DNA of 64,000 nucleotides from Oscillospiraceae bacterium Zagget6 (GTDB lineage: Bacteria; Bacillota; Clostridia; Oscillospirales; Oscillospiraceae), in the NCBI GenBank assembly GCA_001941075.1, contig MSHH01000075.1, forward strand, positions 24,158 to 88,157, written 5' to 3'. Below are positions 8,315 through 32,518 of the stretch, one piece after another. The number at the start of each line of letters is the position of its first letter. Position 1 is the stretch's first letter. The position numbers and the translations under genes are program-made. Under the pieces are notes generated by a model. The model saw only the letters and a list, made by a program, of their open reading frames with translations. It had not been told where the DNA came from and searched no databases.

Positions 8315-9061
8315 GTGAACACGATGGACAACACCAGAGAAATCGAGACCTTGCAGCAGTGGATCGACGGCAGCGACAACATCGTCTTTTTCGGCGGGGC
8401 GGGCGTCTCCACCGAGAGCGGTATCCCTGACTTCCGCAGTCAGGACGGGCTGTACAACCAGAAGTACGATGAGCCGCCGGAGACCATCATCTCCCACACC
8501 TATTTCATGCGCAAGCCGGAGAAGTTCTATCGGTTTTACAAGGACAAGATGATTGCCCCGGACGCCAAGCCCAACGCCGCCCACAAAAAGCTGGCGGAGC
8601 TGGAACAGGCCGGGAAACTGCGGGCCGTCATCACCCAGAACATCGACGGTCTCCACCAGGACGCGGGCAGCAAAGAGGTGCTGGAGCTGCATGGTAGCGT
8701 CCGCCGGAACGACTGTATGAAGTGCGGCGCCCACTTCGACGGGGTGGACATCGTACTGAACAGCCCCGGGGTCCCCAAATGTCCCCGCTGCGGCGGCACC
8801 ATCAAGCCAGACGTGGTCCTCTACGAGGAGGGGCTGGACGACACCACCCTTTACCGTGCAGTGGACTACATTCGGGCCGCAGATGTCCTCATCGTGGGCG
8901 GCACCTCTCTGGTGGTCTACCCCGCCGCGGGCCTCATTAACTACTACCGGGGCCACAAGCTGGTGCTCATCAACCTCCAGCCCACCGGCTATGACCGGCA
9001 GGCCGATTTGGTCATCGCCGGGAAAATCGGTCAGGTGCTGGGCCAAATTCAGGTGCGATAA
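8315..9061 (+). CDS. Canonical Sir2 family NAD-dependent protein deacetylase
   Basis: [32 protein letters not shown] (catalytic His present), CxxC...CxxC zinc site. Confidence 0.95.
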
Positions 9062-20702: not shown

Positions 20703-21392
20703 ATGAAATTTTGGAGGCGAAACTGGTATTACATCGGCGGCGTCCTTTTTGTTCTGTTGGCCTTTGTCATGGGGCTGTGGGGCTGCGACCACTTGAGCAA
20801 AATCCGGGTCATCCTGATTTTCAGCTGGATGGGGATGCTAATGCACCAGTTTGAGGAATATGCGTTTCCCGGCGGTTTTCCCCTGATTTCCAACATGGCC
20901 GGACTGGGCGAGACGGAACACCCGGAGCACTACCCGCTGAACGCGAGGCAGAGCTTTTTGAGCAACGTCATCTTCTGCTACCTGAGCTACATCATCCCCA
21001 TCTGCTTCCCCAATCTGGTCTGGATGGGGGCCAGCCAGGTGCTGGCCGGTGTGTGGCAGCTTCCGGGGCACGGCATTGCCATGAACGTGCGGCTGAAAAG
21101 CAAGTACAACCCCGGTCTGGCGTCCACGGCGGTTTTGCAGACGCCAGTGGCGATTTACTACATCTGGTACGTCTGCACCTACATGCCGGAAAAGGCGGGA
21201 CAGCTCTGGTGGGGCATCCCCGGTTCCATCCTCATGTTACTCCTGACCTTTATCGTCCCCATTCTGGTGATGAAGGACAAAAATTCTCCCTATCCCTTTG
21301 AGGACCGGGAACTGTACGGTTACAACAAGGAACACGTCGCGGCGCTGTGGGAAGAACGGAAAGCTGCGAAGGCTGCAAAGGAGGACAATTAA
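20703..21392 (+). CDS. HXXEE domain-containing membrane protein 1
   Basis: SWMGMLMHQFEEYAFPGGFP, several TM helices. Confidence 0.82.
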   Translation: MKFWRRNWYYIGGVLFVLLAFVMGLWGCDHLSKIRVILIFSWMGMLMHQFEEYAFPGGFPLISNMAGLGETEHPEHYPLNARQSFLSNVIFCYLSYIIPICFPNLVWMGASQVLAGVWQLPGHGIAMNVRLKSKYNPGLASTAVLQTPVAIYYIWYVCTYMPEKAGQLWWGIPGSILMLLLTFIVPILVMKDKNSPYPFEDRELYGYNKEHVAALWEERKAAKAAKEDN

Positions 21393-21394
21393 AA

Positions 21395-22099
21395 ATGGTG
21401 AAAAAGCTGGATAAATGGTGTGACATCAACTGGATCATCTTCATTTGCGTGACGGGTGTCGTCACCGGCGTACTCGCCGCCATCTTCTGGGACAAAATGC
21501 CCCTGGGCGCGCAGGGCGCGGTGTTTGTGGCGATGATTATGCCCTTCCACGTGCTGGAGGAGTGGAAATTCCCCGGCGGTCTCCACATTTTTTACAACGT
21601 TCTGCTGGGTCCGAAGGAGGCCGAAAAGCAGCAGCTTGACCGGTTCCCCATGAGCCGTCTCACCGATATGATCACCAACGTGGGCTTGCAGTGGATTCCG
21701 CTGGTCTATCTGGTCCTCAGCTTCTTCACCGGCCTCTCCAACGCCACCGCCCTGTGCATGATGCTGCTGTGCTTCATCGAAGTGTGCGCCCACACCGGTG
21801 CCGGCACGCTCACCTATTTCTGGCTGAGAAAGGACGGCAAGAGGACCATCTATCACCCCGGTTTTGCCACCTCCTGGATGATGTTCCTGCCTGCGGGGGT
21901 CTATATCGTGGCGCATTTGGAAAATGTCACCAGAAGCGACTGGCTCTGGGCGATCATCCTGTTCATCATCATGATGCTGATTTGCATTGTTCTGACGGAG
22001 ACGCCGCTGAAAAAGTGGGTCTACAAGCAGGACAAGGGCGTGTTCGCCTTTGCCGACGCCAAGTATTATGAGAAGTACCCCTCCTTCTGGAAGAAGTGA
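21395..22099 (+). CDS. HXXEE domain-containing membrane protein 2
   Basis: MIMPFHVLEEWKFPGGLHIFYN, multi-TM; tandem with 1 and 3. Confidence 0.82.
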   Translation: MVKKLDKWCDINWIIFICVTGVVTGVLAAIFWDKMPLGAQGAVFVAMIMPFHVLEEWKFPGGLHIFYNVLLGPKEAEKQQLDRFPMSRLTDMITNVGLQWIPLVYLVLSFFTGLSNATALCMMLLCFIEVCAHTGAGTLTYFWLRKDGKRTIYHPGFATSWMMFLPAGVYIVAHLENVTRSDWLWAIILFIIMMLICIVLTETPLKKWVYKQDKGVFAFADAKYYEKYPSFWKK

Positions 22100-22114
22100 T
22101 ACGAGGCAGACAGC

Positions 22115-22807
22115 ATGAAATTCTGGAGACGATACTGGTACTGGATCGGCGGCGTTCTCTTTGTGGCTCTGGCTTTTATGATGGGACTGTGGGGCTGTGA
22201 ACACCTGCCGAAGCTACAGACGATTTTGATTTTCAGCTGGATGGCCATGCTGGTCCATCAGGTGGAGGAATACGGTTTCCCCGGCGGGATGCCGTCCATC
22301 ACCAACATGGCTGCCTTCCGGGAGAAGGAAGCGCCGGAGCGGTATCCCTTTAACGCGCAGCAGTGCTTCATCTGCAATGTGTTCCTGTGCTATGCCTTCT
22401 ACATTCTGGCGATTTGCTTTCCCAACGTGATTTGGCTGGGGGCCTCTCAGGTGCTGTGTGTGCTGGTGCAGCTGGCGGCCCACGGCCTGCTCATCAACTT
22501 CTCGTTGAAGAGTTTTTATAACCCCGGCCTGGGTTCCACCGTGTTTTTGCAGCTGCCTGTCGCCATTTACTATATCTGGTATGTCTGTACCACCATGCCG
22601 GAACAGGCGCGGCAACTCTGGATCGGCGCTCCCGGTGCGATTATTGCAATGCTCATATGCTTCATCGCCCCCGTGTTGCTGATGCGGAACCGGAAGAATC
22701 CCTATCCCTTCGCTGAGGAGGAGATGTACGGGTACAAGAAGGAAAAAGTGCTGGAAATCTGGCAGGACAGCAAGCCCTCCCTGCTGCAAAGGGTCGGGCT
22801 GAAGTAA
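22115..22807 (+). CDS. HXXEE domain-containing membrane protein 3
   Basis: AMLVHQVEEYGFPGGMPSITNMA; closely similar to protein 1. Confidence 0.82.
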   Translation: MKFWRRYWYWIGGVLFVALAFMMGLWGCEHLPKLQTILIFSWMAMLVHQVEEYGFPGGMPSITNMAAFREKEAPERYPFNAQQCFICNVFLCYAFYILAICFPNVIWLGASQVLCVLVQLAAHGLLINFSLKSFYNPGLGSTVFLQLPVAIYYIWYVCTTMPEQARQLWIGAPGAIIAMLICFIAPVLLMRNRKNPYPFAEEEMYGYKKEKVLEIWQDSKPSLLQRVGLK

Positions 22808-25251: not shown

Positions 25252-25298
25252 AGGCACTGCATTTTTATCACGCAATCTGTCATAAGGAGGTATTCTCT

Positions 25299-25829
25299 AT
25301 GCAAACATTGGAAGCCATTGCAAAAAGAAAATCAACGCGGAACTTTGACCCGAACAAGTCCGTACCGGATGCGGTGATCGATACCATCGTGAAGGCGGGC
25401 TGTCAGGCTCCCATCGGCGGGAACCAGCGGGATTCCCTGCACCTGACGGTCTGCCGCAGTAAAGACATCCTCGACGCCATCAACCAGTCCACTGCCGCCG
25501 CCATGAAAATCGAACCGCGGGATTTCTTCTACGGTGCGCCCGTTGTCGTCTTTGTCTCTGCCGCGAACAAGCAGATGGCCCCCGGCGTGGAATATGCCAA
25601 CGCCGCCTGCGTCATCGAAAACATGCTGATCGCGGCCACAGACGCCGGGGTGGATAACATTTACCTCTGGGGCGCTGTACAGGCCCTGGCGAAGAACACG
25701 GAGCTGTGTGCCAAGATGGGGATACCGGAAGACTTCCGGCCTGTCTCCGCCGCAGCGCTTGGCTACAGCCTCAGCGGAGCTGCTCAGCCGAGAGAGCTGT
25801 CTGTGTCACTCAGCGCGAATTACATCTAA
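25299..25829 (+). CDS. Nitroreductase family protein
   Basis: LEAIAKRKSTRNFDPNKSVPDAVIDTIVKAGCQAPIGGNQRDS; AAGGAGG RBS. Confidence 0.9.
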   Translation: MQTLEAIAKRKSTRNFDPNKSVPDAVIDTIVKAGCQAPIGGNQRDSLHLTVCRSKDILDAINQSTAAAMKIEPRDFFYGAPVVVFVSAANKQMAPGVEYANAACVIENMLIAATDAGVDNIYLWGAVQALAKNTELCAKMGIPEDFRPVSAAALGYSLSGAAQPRELSVSLSANYI

Positions 25830-25922: not shown

Positions 25923-26381
25923 ATGAAAACTTTGATTGCTTATTATTCGAGAGGCGGCGCCACGAGAAAGGCGGCTGAAAAGCTCCAAACCATTACGAAC
26001 GGAGATTTATTTGAGGTCAAAGGCGAAAAGAACTATGGCAATTATTTCACTGCGCTTGGAATTGCCAGAAAGGAATTCGCCGAAAACGAACTTCCGAAGG
26101 TAACGGGTAAAGTGGATAATTTCGATTCTTATAACCGTATCCTCATCGGGTTCCCGATTTGGTACAGCAAGTGTCCGCAATTAGTGATGTCATTTATCTC
26201 GCAGCATGATTTCTCCGGAAAAGAAGTTTATCCATTCTGCACCAGTGGAATGAGCGGGCCAGAGCAGGCAGTGGAGCAACTGAAAAGTGCCTGTGTGGGT
26301 GCGATTGTTCACACTGGGCTTCGTTTGAACAAGTGCGATGAAGAAAAGGTCGGAAAGTGGCTTGGAGGGAATCAAACATGA
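25923..26381 (+). CDS. Flavodoxin
   Basis: MKTLIAYYSRGGATRKAAEKLQ...ILIGFPIWYSKCPQLVMSFI. Confidence 0.88.
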   Translation: MKTLIAYYSRGGATRKAAEKLQTITNGDLFEVKGEKNYGNYFTALGIARKEFAENELPKVTGKVDNFDSYNRILIGFPIWYSKCPQLVMSFISQHDFSGKEVYPFCTSGMSGPEQAVEQLKSACVGAIVHTGLRLNKCDEEKVGKWLGGNQT

Positions 26382-27103
26382 AAAGGGAATACGCGCAGTT
26401 AAAAGACTACATGGAGCAGAGTCAAAAGACCGTCGCCGTCACCGGCGCAGGCATCTCCTATCTTTACGGGATGCGTCGATTGAAACAGAGCGTCGGACGG
26501 ATGAACGCCGGGCGCATTTTTTCCGCCTCGTATGTCCGCAAGAACCCGGAGAAGTTTTACGCGGTCATGAAGGACGCCTTTCTGGACGCCACCTTTGTCA
26601 AGGGGCCAAGTGCCGTCCACAGGCAGCTGGCGGAGCTGGAGCGGCAGGGTAAGCTCTGCGGCATTGTCACCCAGAATCTGGACTGTCTGCACACCATCGC
26701 CGGTTCCCAAAACGTGATAGAGTTTCAGGGCAGTTTCCGGGACAACGTCTGTATTGACTGCGGCGAGCGCTGTTATGATTATCAAGTGTGGAACCAGGGA
26801 AAGATGCCCCGCTGTGAGAAGTGCGGCGCGCCCCTGATGCCGACGGCGTTCTGTCGGGAATCTGGCGCAGGCAGCGATGTTTCGCGGGAAAGTATGCGGA
26901 AAGCCGCCGACCTGATTGCCCAGGCGGATTTGGTGCTGGTCATTGGCACCACCGGTTTCCGCAGCGAGGAATATCTGAGCCGCATGAGAGCCGGGACAAA
27001 GCTGGTGCAGATCAATCCGTCTGCGACGCAGTTTGACCAAATCGCGGACCTGAACATCCGGGCAGACGCCGCCGAAGCGCTGGACGCAGTTTTAAACGGA
27101 TAA
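26378..27103 (+). CDS. Divergent Sir2-fold protein 1 (SirTM/class-M-like, His-to-Gln)
   Basis: AVTGAGISYLYGMRR, TQNLDCLHT, EFQGSFR in place of LHGS, Zn CIDCGE...CEKC; 4-nt overlap with flavodoxin stop. Confidence 0.82.
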   Translation: MKREYAQLKDYMEQSQKTVAVTGAGISYLYGMRRLKQSVGRMNAGRIFSASYVRKNPEKFYAVMKDAFLDATFVKGPSAVHRQLAELERQGKLCGIVTQNLDCLHTIAGSQNVIEFQGSFRDNVCIDCGERCYDYQVWNQGKMPRCEKCGAPLMPTAFCRESGAGSDVSRESMRKAADLIAQADLVLVIGTTGFRSEEYLSRMRAGTKLVQINPSATQFDQIADLNIRADAAEALDAVLNG

Positions 27104-27143
27104 GGGCAGTACGCATATGAGGCTATTCAAAGGAGACCGGAAT

Positions 27144-27836
27144 ATGGACAAAATACAGCAGTTAGCTGATTATATTGACCAAAGCAGCAGCATCGTTGCA
27201 ACCACCGGTGCGGGCATTTCCGTTGGCGGCGGAGGGGTCACGTATGGGCAGATGCGTTTCGCCCGCAGAGGCAGACGAGGCTCCGATGAAGGTTCTTTCC
27301 TGCCCACCTATCTGGAGACGATGTTCTCCTATCAGCCCAGCTTTGCCCACTATGCCCTGGCAGACCTGGAAGCGGAGGGCAAGCTCACCGGAATCATCAC
27401 CACAAACGTGGACTGTATGCACACGATTGCCGGTTCCAAGAATGTGGCCGAAATTCAGGGCAGCGTTCAGGTCAACTGCTGCTCCAAGTGTGGCCGCCAT
27501 TCTGACGGGTATGAGATTTGGAAACAGGACAAACTGCCCCGGTGTCAGGTCTGCGGCGGGGAAATCCTTCCCTGGCCGCTGTACAGCCACATCGGTCTGT
27601 GGGATGCGGATGTCAAAAAAGCCAGAGAGTGGATTTCAAAGGCCGACCTGATCCTTGTCATCGGAACACGGGGCAACTACGGAGACGTTTACTGGAGCAA
27701 TCGGCGTAGAGATGCGGCCATTGTCCAAATCAATCCGGGACGTACCGGGTTTGACAGTGTAGCCAATCTGAACATCCGCCAGAACTCTGATGATGTCTTT
27801 CAAAGTCTGAAAAAACTGCGGCATGGAAATGGCTGA
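27144..27836 (+). CDS. Divergent Sir2-fold protein 2 (SirTM/class-M-like)
   Basis: ATTGAGISVGGGGVTYGQ, TTNVDCMHT, EIQGSVQ, Zn CCSKCG...CQVCG; AAAGGAG RBS. Confidence 0.82.
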   Translation: MDKIQQLADYIDQSSSIVATTGAGISVGGGGVTYGQMRFARRGRRGSDEGSFLPTYLETMFSYQPSFAHYALADLEAEGKLTGIITTNVDCMHTIAGSKNVAEIQGSVQVNCCSKCGRHSDGYEIWKQDKLPRCQVCGGEILPWPLYSHIGLWDADVKKAREWISKADLILVIGTRGNYGDVYWSNRRRDAAIVQINPGRTGFDSVANLNIRQNSDDVFQSLKKLRHGNG

Positions 27837-27863
27837 ATGGGATAAAGATAGGATGTGAGCCTG

Positions 27864-28580
27864 ATGAGATTTTCCAGAGGCGGTCAGAATGAGGACAAAA
27901 TCCAACAGTTAGCCGATTACATTGACCAGAGCCACGCGATGGTAGCCATTACCGGCGCCGGGATCTCACTTTCCGGCGGCGGCGTGACCTATGGGCAGCT
28001 CTCCCGCAGCATCCGGCCAGGCGGGTTCGGGAGTGACCGTTTTTTGCGCTCCTACGTCAAAACGATGCACCACTATCACCCCAGCCCCAGCCACTACGCC
28101 CTGCGGGAGCTGGAGGAGGCCGGAAAGCTGATTGGCATTATCACCACCAACGAGGACTGTATGCACACGATGGCCGGTTCTAAGAACGTGGCGGAAATCC
28201 AGGGCAGCTGTCAAATTAACCGCTGCTCCAAATGCGGACGGCATTACGACGGTTATGAGATATGGGACCAGGAGGAGCTGCCCAAGTGTGAATCCTGCGG
28301 CGGGACGATCCTGCCCTGGGAGCTTTACAGCCACATTGGGCTTTGGGACGAGGGCGTGAAAAAGGCGCAGGACTGGATCTCAAAGGCGGATTTGATTCTT
28401 GTAATCGGAACCAACGGCTATTATGGCAGCGCCTATTGGAATTATCGGCGGCGAGACGCCGTCATTGTCCAAATCAATCCGGGACACACTGGATTTGACA
28501 GCGCGGCTGACCTGAACATCCGGGAACCATGTGACGATGTGTTTCAGAAATTGAAAGAAAGGTGGGGCGAACATGGCTGA
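27864..28580 (+). CDS. Divergent Sir2-fold protein 3 (SirTM/class-M-like)
   Basis: AITGAGISLSGGGVTYGQ, TTNEDCMHT, EIQGSCQ, Zn CSKCG...CESCG; strongly similar to protein 2. Confidence 0.82.
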   Translation: MRFSRGGQNEDKIQQLADYIDQSHAMVAITGAGISLSGGGVTYGQLSRSIRPGGFGSDRFLRSYVKTMHHYHPSPSHYALRELEEAGKLIGIITTNEDCMHTMAGSKNVAEIQGSCQINRCSKCGRHYDGYEIWDQEELPKCESCGGTILPWELYSHIGLWDEGVKKAQDWISKADLILVIGTNGYYGSAYWNYRRRDAVIVQINPGHTGFDSAADLNIREPCDDVFQKLKERWGEHG

Positions 28581-29577
28581 GCAGGAAATCAAAAAGGAAC
28601 TATCCGAAGAAGCACGGCTCCAGCAGCTGGCGGCGCAGATGCGGGCGCGGGAGTATCAGGGCCTCTCTGAGGAGGAAATTCAGGAGCGGGAACGGCAGAA
28701 GGAAATGCGCAAAAAGAAGAACATTGCGATACTGGAGGACACGCTGTCCATTCTGGAACAGGGCGGCTACGCCAAGAATGAGCAAGACGTGCGGCTTGCT
28801 TTCTCACCGGAGCAAATGCGGGAGATTCGGGTGTTCCTGCCGGAGGAGCTTACGGCGCTCATCGCTGCGGAGCAGGAAGAACCGCAGACGCAAAGCGTTC
28901 CCTCCTTCGGCTGTGAGAACGAGGACGCCCTTGTTCTGGCGCAGAAGCAGTATCAGCGGTTACAAGGCGAGGGAGACCCTGCGCCTAAAATCCTCGTGCT
29001 GAATCTGGCCAGCGCCACCCGACCCGGCGGCCAGACCCGGAACGGGGCCAGCGCCCAGGAGGAGGACCTCTGCCGTAGAACGTCCCTGCTGCTGTCTCTG
29101 GAGAGCGAGGGCGCAAAGCGGTACTACGACTACAACAACGCCAGAAAGACCCGCATGGGGTCTGACGGCGTACTGCTCTCCCCCAACGTGGAGGTCGTCA
29201 AGGATTCCTCGTCCGAAACCCTTGCCCAGCCGTTTCCCATCTCTGTCATGAGCTGCGCCGCCCCGATGGTGCGGCTGGGCCTGGAGGGGATGAGCCAGCA
29301 GGAGTACGAGGAAATGCTCTGTCGGCGTATTCAGGGGATGCTGCTGGTGGCGGCGTCTCAGGGCTATCGCCACCTGATTTTAGGCGCCTTCGGCTGCGGC
29401 GTGTACGGGAACGATGCGGCGCTTGTCTCTGATTTGTTCGCCCGTGTCATCCGAGCGTTCACCTATGCCGGAAAAGGCAGCGAACAGCTCTTTGATTCCA
29501 TTCAGTTTGCGGTTCTCTGCCGTCCTGGAAAGGACTATAATTACAGGGAGTTTTGCCGGAATTTCTCTCCCGATTGA
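28573..29577 (+). CDS. Bacterial-type PARG-like macrodomain protein (TIGR02452/DUF2263-like)
   Basis: RPGGQTRNGASAQEEDLCRRTSL matches PARG GGG-X-QEE signature; LGAFGCGVYGND. Confidence 0.88.
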   Translation: MAEQEIKKELSEEARLQQLAAQMRAREYQGLSEEEIQERERQKEMRKKKNIAILEDTLSILEQGGYAKNEQDVRLAFSPEQMREIRVFLPEELTALIAAEQEEPQTQSVPSFGCENEDALVLAQKQYQRLQGEGDPAPKILVLNLASATRPGGQTRNGASAQEEDLCRRTSLLLSLESEGAKRYYDYNNARKTRMGSDGVLLSPNVEVVKDSSSETLAQPFPISVMSCAAPMVRLGLEGMSQQEYEEMLCRRIQGMLLVAASQGYRHLILGAFGCGVYGNDAALVSDLFARVIRAFTYAGKGSEQLFDSIQFAVLCRPGKDYNYREFCRNFSPD

Positions 29578-29645: not shown

Positions 29646-31151
29646 ATGAGTAATTCCACCATTTACGAACGCTTTGCAGAAACCGTGACACAATTTCCCG
29701 ACCAGCCTGCCATTATCGAGCAGGAACAGTCCCTGACCTATGCTCAGCTTGACCGGCGCATTGACGTGATTGCAGTCAATTTCCCCTCACGCAGGGAGGG
29801 GCAAAGCCCCGGAAGTGCCGCTCGACGGCAGGAAACCTGCATCGGCATCGTGGCCGACCACGGGGCCGATTTCGTCGCCGCCATCTTTGCCGTGCTGAAA
29901 ATCGGGGCGGCTTACGTTCCGGCGGAGCCGGATTTCCCGGAGGAACGCATCCGATTCATGATGCAGGAGAACAATGTGGGCTTCATCGTCACCCAGAAAA
30001 AGTATCAGGAGAAGCTGAAAGGCTTCCCTCTGCTGTTTTTAGAGGATATGACCGGAGAAACCGCTGTGCGGGAAAACACCCCCTTGACACGTCCCGATTC
30101 TCTGGCCTATATTTTATATACCTCCGGTTCCACCGGCGTGCCGAAGGGCGTCTGCGTGACCAACGCCAACGTCTGTCATTACGTCCGGGCGTTTCAGCAC
30201 GAATTTCACCCCATGGCTGGGGACGTGATGCTGCAATACTCCGTCTGTTCCTTCGACATTTTCGTGGAAGAGGTGTTCACCACGCTGCTTTCCGGGGCCG
30301 CCCTCGCCATCCCGAACGGTCAGGCGAGAGCGGATGTCCATTCTCTGATGGACTTTGTGCGGGAGAAGAACGTGACCATGCTCAGCGGGTTCCCTTATCT
30401 GTTGATGGAACTGAACGCGCTGGAGCGCATCCCCTCCAGCCTGCGGCTGCTCATCAGCGGCGGCGACATTCTCCGGGAGAGTTATGTGGACCGTCTGCTG
30501 CCCCAGGTCACGGTCTACAATACCTATGGGCCGTCGGAGACCACCGTCTGTTGCAGCTATTTCCGCTGCAACGGCCAGAAGGCGCTGGAGGATGGCACCT
30601 ATCCCATCGGGAAACCGGTGCTCGGAACGCAAATCGAGCTGTTGGACGAGGATGGAAAGCCCGTCCCCGCCGGTTCCGTGGGGGAGCTTTGCATCTTCGG
30701 CAGCGGCGTCTCCAACGGGTATCTTGACCAGAGCAGGAATGAGATGTTTGTGACAGCAGCGGACGGAAAGCGATTCTACCGGAGCGGCGATTTGGGCTAT
30801 CTCCTGCCGGACGGCAATCTGGCGTTCCTCCACCGCAGAGACTCTCAGGTGATGATCCTGGGGAAACGGGTGGAGCCGGAGGAGGTGGAAAACGTCCTGT
30901 GCGACTGCGAGGAGGTGCAGACCGCCGTGGTCTGCCCGTTCACGGATGAACACGGCCTCTCCTACCTGACCGCCTATGTGGTCCCGGAAGGGACAGGGTT
31001 CGTTCTGTCCGAGGTCAAGAAAAAGCTGCGGCGCTATCTGACCGCCTTCATGATACCGGAGTTTTTCGTGATACTGGATCACATCCCCCTGACCCCCAAC
31101 GGAAAGCCGGATGTGAAAAGCCTGCCGGTGGTGCTGAAAGAGGGGGCCTAG
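29646..31151 (+). CDS. Stand-alone AMP-binding/amino-acid adenylation domain enzyme
   Basis: YILYTSGSTGVPKGVCVTN, YGPSETTV, YRSGDLGYLLPDGN, PLTPNGKPDVKSLP; no carrier domain. Confidence 0.92.
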   Translation: MSNSTIYERFAETVTQFPDQPAIIEQEQSLTYAQLDRRIDVIAVNFPSRREGQSPGSAARRQETCIGIVADHGADFVAAIFAVLKIGAAYVPAEPDFPEERIRFMMQENNVGFIVTQKKYQEKLKGFPLLFLEDMTGETAVRENTPLTRPDSLAYILYTSGSTGVPKGVCVTNANVCHYVRAFQHEFHPMAGDVMLQYSVCSFDIFVEEVFTTLLSGAALAIPNGQARADVHSLMDFVREKNVTMLSGFPYLLMELNALERIPSSLRLLISGGDILRESYVDRLLPQVTVYNTYGPSETTVCCSYFRCNGQKALEDGTYPIGKPVLGTQIELLDEDGKPVPAGSVGELCIFGSGVSNGYLDQSRNEMFVTAADGKRFYRSGDLGYLLPDGNLAFLHRRDSQVMILGKRVEPEEVENVLCDCEEVQTAVVCPFTDEHGLSYLTAYVVPEGTGFVLSEVKKKLRRYLTAFMIPEFFVILDHIPLTPNGKPDVKSLPVVLKEGA

Positions 31152-31155
31152 CGAA

Positions 31156-31626
31156 TTGGACCTGACAATCAGAAAAGCGGACCGCTCCGACCTGGAGGAA
31201 CTGCTGCGCTGGCGGGAAGTCGTTCTGCGGGAGGTGTTTTCCATCTCCGCCGGGGAAGATAGGACAGAGCTTCTCGCCGCAAACCGGGCGTATTACCAGA
31301 CTGCGCTGGAAACGAGGGAACACATCGCCTGCTTCGCCTGCGTGGGAGAACAGACGGTTGGCTGCGGCGGCGTCTGCCTCTATCGGGAGATGCCCTCGCC
31401 GGACAATCCCAGCGGCAAATGCGGGTATCTGATGAATATTTACACCCTGCCCGCCCTGCGCCAGCAGGGTGTGGGAAAAGCGGTCGTGCAATGGCTGGTA
31501 CAGGAGGCGAAGCGCTGGGGCGCAGAAAAGATTTATCTGGAGGCGTCGGAACAGGCATATCCCCTGTATCGGTCATTGGGCTTTCAGGATATGAAGGGAT
31601 ATTTGAAGTACAATATGAGCTGTTAG
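31156..31626 (+). CDS. GNAT family N-acetyltransferase (TTG start)
   Basis: LTIRKADRSDLEELLRWRE...LMNIYTLPALRQQGVGKAVVQWLVQEAKRWGAEKIYLEA. Confidence 0.88.
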   Translation: MDLTIRKADRSDLEELLRWREVVLREVFSISAGEDRTELLAANRAYYQTALETREHIACFACVGEQTVGCGGVCLYREMPSPDNPSGKCGYLMNIYTLPALRQQGVGKAVVQWLVQEAKRWGAEKIYLEASEQAYPLYRSLGFQDMKGYLKYNMSC

Positions 31627-31815
31627 CTATTAGCCGTTAGCTGTTGCCGTCAAGCGGCACTTCCGAAGCTGCGCTTCTCCCTGTAGTCAGGCACTACAAA
31701 CCCAAAACACAGTGCATAAAACGAAATGTGAAAACAACTGTTCGTAAGGTGCTGTCAGCAAAAGTTAAGCACCACAAAGCTAATAGCTAATAGCCAAAAG
31801 CTAAGAGCTAAAAAG
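31614..31815. repeat. Interspersed repeat copy R3, inside the operon
   Basis: GAGCTGTTAGCTATTAGCCGTTAGCTG ... AAGCTAATAGCTAATAGCCAAAAGCTAAGAGCTAAA; supplies the GNAT stop codon. Confidence 0.7.
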
Positions 31816-31825
31816 GTGAGGGAGT

Positions 31826-32518
31826 ATGAAAGCAGAAAAGGCCGTCACATTGCCAGTGAACGGAAAGAAGATACAGGTCTACTGCGCGTCTCAAGCAGCG
31901 CCGCTGGTGATTTATCACGCCGTAATGGGCGAAGGAAAAGCCCTATGGCAAGCCTGCCAGAAGGTAGACTGCCCGGCGTTTTCGCTGGCAGTCATCAACG
32001 GCGTGAGCTGGGACGACGATATGACGCCGTGGGCCATCCCGCCCATCTCCAAGGGGGACACCCCCTGTTCCGGCTGCGCAGACGCCTGGTTAGCGCAGCT
32101 CACCGGCGAACTGCTGCCGCAGATCACGGCAGCTCTCCCCTTCCCGCCGACCTATTGCGCCCTGGCGGGTTATTCCCTGGCAGGGTTGTTCGCCGTGTAC
32201 GCAGGGTATAAGACGGACTGCTTCTCCCGCCTGATTTCTGCGTCCGGCTCGATGTGGTATCCTGACTTCGTGACCTTTGTCCAGCAGCACTTCATTTCGG
32301 AACAGGTGAAGGTGATTTACTTCTCCCTGGGAGATCAGGAGAGCCACACGAAAAATCAGTACCTCGCCCCGGTGGAGGAAAACACCCGGTTCCTGGCACA
32401 ATATTTTTCGGAGCAGGGCATCCAAACGACCTTCCAGCTGAACAAAGGCAACCACTACCGGAACTCCACAGGCCGGATGGCCGTAGGGATTCAGTGGGCG
32501 CTGGAGCAGCAGCTTTGA
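31826..32518 (+). CDS. Alpha/beta-hydrolase fold putative esterase
   Basis: YCALAGYSLAGLFAVYAGYKTDCFSRLISASGSMWYP. Confidence 0.75.
   Translation: MKAEKAVTLPVNGKKIQVYCASQAAPLVIYHAVMGEGKALWQACQKVDCPAFSLAVINGVSWDDDMTPWAIPPISKGDTPCSGCADAWLAQLTGELLPQITAALPFPPTYCALAGYSLAGLFAVYAGYKTDCFSRLISASGSMWYPDFVTFVQQHFISEQVKVIYFSLGDQESHTKNQYLAPVEENTRFLAQYFSEQGIQTTFQLNKGNHYRNSTGRMAVGIQWALEQQL

Follow-up and report, generated by a model that had tools for sequence, protein, structure and literature searches.

GENE CONTENT OF THE CASSETTE

Four adjoining genes of Oscillospiraceae bacterium Zagget6 encode three sirtuins in which the catalytic histidine is replaced by glutamine (QG sirtuins), followed by a PARG-type macrodomain protein. 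This group, called the cassette below, lies in the window, which is the whole 64,000-nucleotide stretch of contig MSHH01000075.1 that was analyzed and to which all unlabeled positions refer. Its members are the following.

26378..27103, + strand: SirA, Sir2-fold protein with EFQGS (His to Gln), in which MRRLKQ replaces the PDFR region
27117..27836, + strand: SirB, Sir2-fold protein with EIQGS and a shortened cofactor-loop region
27855..28580, + strand: SirC, Sir2-fold protein with EIQGS, a close duplicate of SirB (70% identity)
28573..29577, + strand: predicted PARG-type macrodomain hydrolase with an N-terminal helical extension and the QEE catalytic motif

A first-pass annotation of this DNA had described three tandem Sir2-fold open reading frames that keep GAGIS and two CxxC pairs, lack SGIPDFR, and carry these glutamine motifs, with a PARG gene overlapping the third. 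All of these features are present. The sirtuins, of ~240 amino acids each, match Pfam SIR2 (PF02146) at 89, 69, and 69 bits, respectively (cut-off 24), and the fourth protein matches both PARG_cat_microb (PF10021, 96 bits) and TIGR02452 (155 bits, cut-off 50) and holds the PARG signature P-GGQTRNGASAQEE. SirC can start at either GTG 27855 or ATG 27864, and its gene shares 8 nt (28573-28580) with that of PARG. SirB and SirC are sister duplicates, and SirA represents a separate deep lineage. The absence of GcvH-L and LplA2, also remarked upon at the outset, is consistent with the neighbors identified in the window.

CONSERVATION OF LINKAGE AND GENE ORDER

The public set comprises 79 cassette loci from Lachnospiraceae, Oscillospiraceae, Ruminococcus, and unplaced Clostridiales metagenome-assembled genomes (MAGs), and locus counts overstate the number of independent events because the loci come from MAGs that are not independent lineages. 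Within this set, PARG lies immediately 3′ of a B/C-type sirtuin in 60/60 PARG-holding loci. Of 63 PARG matches, 60 fall within 250 bp after a QG sirtuin, and 45 of the 60 overlap it or are ≤8 nt away. Each of the 12 genomes that gave a sirtuin locus without PARG encodes it on another contig (12/12). Flanking genes vary between groups of loci, and the core of the cassette is constant.

The sirtuin complement is more flexible. Three QG sirtuins are indeed present in the window, as first described, but they are not a fixed set of "three writers": among loci with enough sequence, PARG is preceded by SirA and SirB in 29, by SirA, SirB, and SirC in 21, and by SirB alone in four. The minimal unit is one B-type sirtuin plus PARG. 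A further type of QG sirtuin, SirD, is ~50% identical to SirC and stands directly 3′ of PARG in some loci (L026:8858-9547, L036:2090-2779, and others).

Genome samples give the same picture of co-occurrence. Among 32 genomes of the same genus, 14 encode this PARG and all 14 encode the sirtuins, while the remaining 18 have neither. In a sample of 396 genomes from the order, the six that carry cassette sirtuins are exactly the six with N-terminally extended PARG (6/6 versus 0/390). Five more genomes in this sample hold PARG homologs whose match to the profile begins at position 41 or beyond; four of these sit in longer open frames. In a sample of 398 genomes drawn from across the phylum, the window genome not included, no cassette was found outside Clostridia at an E value of 1e-45. 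The proposed genome-neighborhood survey thus bears out the linkage of QG sirtuins with PARG.

ACTIVE SITES OF THE TWO PROTEIN FAMILIES

Comparison of 174 full-length cassette sirtuins from the 79 loci reveals a consistent pattern of loss and retention. The (E)LHG(S) motif of canonical sirtuins is changed to EFQGS, EIQGS, and EIQGS in SirA, SirB, and SirC, and glutamine occupies the catalytic position in 174/174 proteins. No variation is seen at the Asn and Asp of TxNxD or at the Ser of the GAG(I)S loop, and very little at the four zinc cysteines. In the alignment, the cassette sirtuins lack the PDFR stretch, and the VVLYEE-type substrate loop of canonical sirtuins has been replaced. Judged as canonical SIR2 deacylases, then, these proteins lack both the catalytic His and the PDFR cofactor loop. 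Ratios of nonsynonymous to synonymous substitution (dN/dS) in the same-genus pairs compared range from 0.05 to 0.09 for the sirtuins and from 0.16 to 0.19 for PARG. The QG pattern is not due to chance, because Gln, the TxNxD residues, and nearly all zinc cysteines are conserved and dN/dS is low. Fold and sequence searches group SirC with archaeal and Thermotoga Sir2 proteins. Its predicted structure is of moderate quality (confidence score, pLDDT, 73, with residues 40-73 unreliable), and for this reason no active-site geometry was taken from the model.

The PARG proteins of the cassette likewise keep their expected catalytic residues. Among 55 sequences, both Glu residues of QEE and the Asn of LNLAS are kept in 55/55, and the Phe of GAFGCG in 54. 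Sequence and fold searches group these proteins with the bacterial-type PARGs of T. curvata and D. radiodurans (TIGR02452/PF10021), with TcPARG as the best fold match, and they share with these enzymes the fold, the QEE motif, and the residues that bind ADP-ribose. They differ in that Gln, His, or Arg stands in place of the last Gly of GGG, such that the signature reads GG-X8-QEE rather than GGG-X6-8-QEE, and in being encoded with a candidate writer. A conserved helical extension of about 45-50 residues ahead of the PARG domain is unmatched in the other PARG homologs of the order. At one locus (L038:6593-9127, genome G042), a single chain of 844 amino acids fuses PARG, ADP-ribosylglycohydrolase (PF03747), and NADAR (PF08719), bringing together three ADP-ribose-processing domains.

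RELATIONSHIP TO CLASS M AND CANONICAL SIRTUINS

The first-pass annotation related the cassette to class M sirtuins (SirTM), whose motif definitions are taken here from PMC4518038. Several parallels are genuine. Both systems replace the sirtuin His with Gln, both link the sirtuin directly to a macrodomain hydrolase, and both often have flavin oxidoreductases nearby (old yellow enzyme and luciferase-like proteins for class M, nitroreductase and flavodoxin for the cassette). Kinship is another matter. The cassette sirtuins are ~240 rather than ~290 amino acids long and read QGS rather than QGD. In the three QG sirtuins of the window, the class M motif GVGx[NT]TP is absent, with IGTNG, IGTRG, and IGTTG in its place, and the position aligned with Arg192 is Leu in SirB and SirC and Phe in SirA, in a region where the alignment is weak. 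The eraser is of the PARG type and not of the Zn-Macro subclass, the number of sirtuins ranges from one to three, and GcvH-L and LplA2 have no counterpart in the cassette.

The window genome also holds a genuine class M pair, consisting of a SirTM with GVGANTP and TQGD and its Zn-Macro, on contig C11 (L123:687-2349, G000:C11). Two unlike QG-sirtuin/macrodomain systems are therefore found in one genome. This SirTM matches SpySirTM (5a3a) with 268 bits, but SirC and SirA match it with only 26 and 28 bits, respectively, and the cassette PARG has no significant BLAST match to the Zn-Macro from the same genome. A canonical HG sirtuin (CobB-like, ELHGS) is encoded in the same window at 8315-9061, and SirC and SirA match this paralog with 118 and 124 bits (34-35% identity). 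Canonical Sir2/CobB proteins (the PRK00481 group) are the closest relatives of the cassette sirtuins in both sequence and fold, from which the latter differ by the absence of the catalytic His and PDFR and by the altered substrate-binding loop.

Phylogenetic analysis, which had been suggested as a check on class M membership, gave a partial answer. An initial tree, in which canonical sirtuins were represented by few kinds, did not settle where the cassette clade falls with respect to the other two groups. In a broader tree, the cassette proteins form a clade (100/100) whose sister is a canonical Firmicutes clade (96/86), and no bootstrap tree (0%) gathers the histidine sirtuins on one side of a branch. 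A different alignment and sampling lowers the support for the cassette-canonical grouping to 81/64, and the histidine sirtuins are then one-sided in 12% of bootstraps. Constraining the cassette and class M to one clade costs 21.8 log units, with p = 0.075 in the approximately unbiased (AU) test, a value that leaves a single origin of the Gln formally admissible. Because the best trees place the cassette beside canonical sirtuins and the joint clade reaches only this AU value, two separate origins of the Gln are favored by the sequence comparisons, though not proven. Assignment of the cassette proteins to class M SirTM itself is rejected, since motifs, eraser family, similarity, and best-tree position all speak against it.

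NEIGHBORING GENES AND A SIDE LINEAGE

Other genes of the window lie close to the cassette on either side.

25296..25829, + strand: nitroreductase-family flavoprotein (Pfam PF00881), the usual neighbor 5′ of the cassette
25923..26381, + strand: flavodoxin (Pfam PF12682), found in a subset of loci
29646..31151, + strand: stand-alone AMP-binding (adenylation) protein, accessory, 19/79 loci
31156..31626, + strand: GNAT acetyltransferase, accessory
31826..32518, + strand: esterase-like protein, accessory

Neighbors were mapped by targeted tblastn, so that genes outside the query list can escape. The flavodoxin stop and the SirA start share 4 nt (ATGA at 26378). More generally, a co-directional flavin enzyme lies ≤0.9 kb 5′ of SirA in 43/50 informative loci, and 25/36 have an Rrf2 or TetR gene in divergent orientation. 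As has been proposed for class M, these flavin-reductase neighbors and regulators suggest use under redox or electrophile stress. The adenylation, GNAT, and esterase genes (29646-32518) are found after the cassette in 16 to 19 of the 79 loci. None of 13 same-genus genomes without a cassette has the adenylation gene, and no carrier protein was identified beside the copy in the window. Farther 5′, tandem multi-pass membrane proteins (20703-22807), the first of which has a match to Pfam HXXEE, a family whose function is not known, are conserved in relatives next to an EFR1-type ferredoxin gene.

A diverged, solo QG sirtuin also occurs apart from the cassette. It adjoins MarR and TM1586-type nitroreductase genes in bacterial genome G843 (L179:7467-9267), and the same three gene types are inserted between phage tail genes, in the order MarR, TM1586-type nitroreductase, QG sirtuin (L210:3900-5696, IMG/VR UViG_3300013830_000222), where the sirtuin retains SGIP. 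Because the sirtuins of this side lineage adjoin a nitroreductase, the association with nitroreductase may date back as far as that with PARG. The idea that plasmids or phages carry the cassette itself was rejected, since plasmid and phage records gave only distant sirtuins (<60% identity). Those that were read carry HG, the diverged solo QG sirtuin of the one IMG/VR contig aside. Likewise, the cassette is not a known anti-phage defense system as judged by PADLOC, which gave no match at an E value of 0.01.

PROPOSED FUNCTION AND ALTERNATIVE EXPLANATIONS

SirTM, with Gln at the catalytic position and the Asn kept, is an obligate ADP-ribosyltransferase whose modification is reversed by the linked macrodomain (PMC4518038, PMC11490716). 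Since the same combination of Gln and Asn is present here, the cassette can by analogy be read as a reversible ADP-ribosylation module in which QG sirtuins are the writers and PARG is the eraser, a reading given a probability of roughly 0.6. The sirtuins would bind NAD+ and, rather than deacylate lysine, attach ADP-ribose to an acceptor, and the PARG-type protein, presumably coupled in translation to the last sirtuin, would take the ADP-ribose off. The core would be one B-type sirtuin plus PARG. SirA and the B/C duplicate probably supply a partner subunit or extra specificity; either a hetero-complex or two specificities is plausible because SirA is an old separate lineage and B and C are sister duplicates. 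Such a module might be used under redox or electrophile stress, and most likely derives from canonical bacterial sirtuins independently of SirTM/Zn-Macro. Thus, the writer/eraser part of the original proposal gains from the strictly kept gene order, from co-occurrence without exception in the samples, and from retained active sites, and its class M part is not supported.

Several observations weigh against this assignment of roles. Arg192, the partner residue of Gln in SirTM, is not conserved and the PDFR loop is lost, and therefore NAD+ chemistry should not be assumed. Neither G843, a 98% complete genome, nor the L210 phage contig has a PARG match, so an eraser can be dispensable, at least within this side lineage. 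Classical PARG cleaves poly(ADP-ribose) (PAR) but spares the unit next to the protein (PMC8883491), whereas mono-ADP-ribosylation is what sirtuins are known for. Given that polymers are the best-known substrates of PARG, the product may be something other than simple mono-ADP-ribose. A bolder form of the proposal, which must be considered doubtful, holds that two or three unlike QG sirtuins jointly build a product that requires PARG, possibly a short ADP-ribose chain or one ADP-ribose joined to another by an O-glycosidic link, and would thereby constitute an independently evolved class and the native writer for bacterial-type PARG.

Some of the same evidence can be read differently. Loss of the PDFR loop and of an Arg192 equivalent, together with several paralogs side by side, would fit catalytically dead proteins that sense NAD+ or ADP-ribose, or act as scaffolds, and in this way control PARG or the flavin reductases. 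Pseudoenzymes usually drift at catalytic positions, but the QG sirtuins are under strong purifying selection with Gln, Asn, and Asp fully invariant, and a macrodomain hydrolase as neighbor implies an ADP-ribosyl product, leaving this explanation unlikely. It is similarly improbable that the QG sirtuins are toxic ADP-ribosyltransferases or NAD+ consumers for which PARG is the antidote in a toxin-antitoxin or defense-like system. Precedents exist in DarT/DarG and in sirtuin-macrodomain phage pairs (PMC9503650), one QG sirtuin set is located in a phage tail region, and PARG is encoded elsewhere in each of the 12 genomes that have a QG locus without it; against this, PADLOC gave no matches, the cassette sits among redox genes and regulators, and a solo sirtuin without PARG exists.

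The nature of the acceptor and of the reaction can also be questioned. Nitroreductase, esterase, GNAT, and adenylation neighbors would fit small-molecule chemistry, and macrodomains process nucleic-acid-linked ADP-ribose (PMC8883491), which would match an acceptor other than protein in detoxification or repair. This idea has little in its favor overall, because the accessory genes differ between loci (the adenylation gene occurs in 19/79). Least probable of all is that the QG sirtuins are still deacylases and PARG clears their O-acyl-ADP-ribose product. Similarity of 34-35% to the canonical paralog is consistent with this, as is the hydrolysis of O-acetyl-ADP-ribose by macrodomains (cited in PMC12700824), but the catalytic His is replaced in every protein compared, the substrate-binding loop is altered, and the genome already has its canonical HG sirtuin (8315-9061).

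IMPLICATIONS

The cassette is probably a second, convergent sirtuin/macrodomain system whose eraser family differs from that of SirTM. A placement of the writer beside a macrodomain eraser is also seen in DarT/DarG and in phage sirtuin-Macro pairs, although these use other macrodomain families and DarT is a PARP-like ADP-ribosyltransferase that acts on DNA. A literature search, with most subscription papers and bioRxiv preprints outside its range, returned no paper on QG sirtuins with PARG. SirTM has been described as the sole sirtuin class with ADP-ribosyltransferase activity alone, with GcvH-L as its one known protein substrate (PMC11490716), and a 2025 sirtuin tree names only SIR2, SIR2_2, and SirTM (PMC12700824).

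If the QG sirtuins of the cassette do represent a second such lineage, the change from His to Gln combined with a macrodomain eraser would be a repeatable evolutionary route, and the two lineages would offer a natural test of which residues turn a sirtuin into a transferase. Furthermore, D. radiodurans has PARG and detectable PAR without a recognized PARP (PMC6445106), which raises the question of where the substrates of bacterial PARG natively come from. The cassette supplies a candidate writer for bacterial-type PARG.

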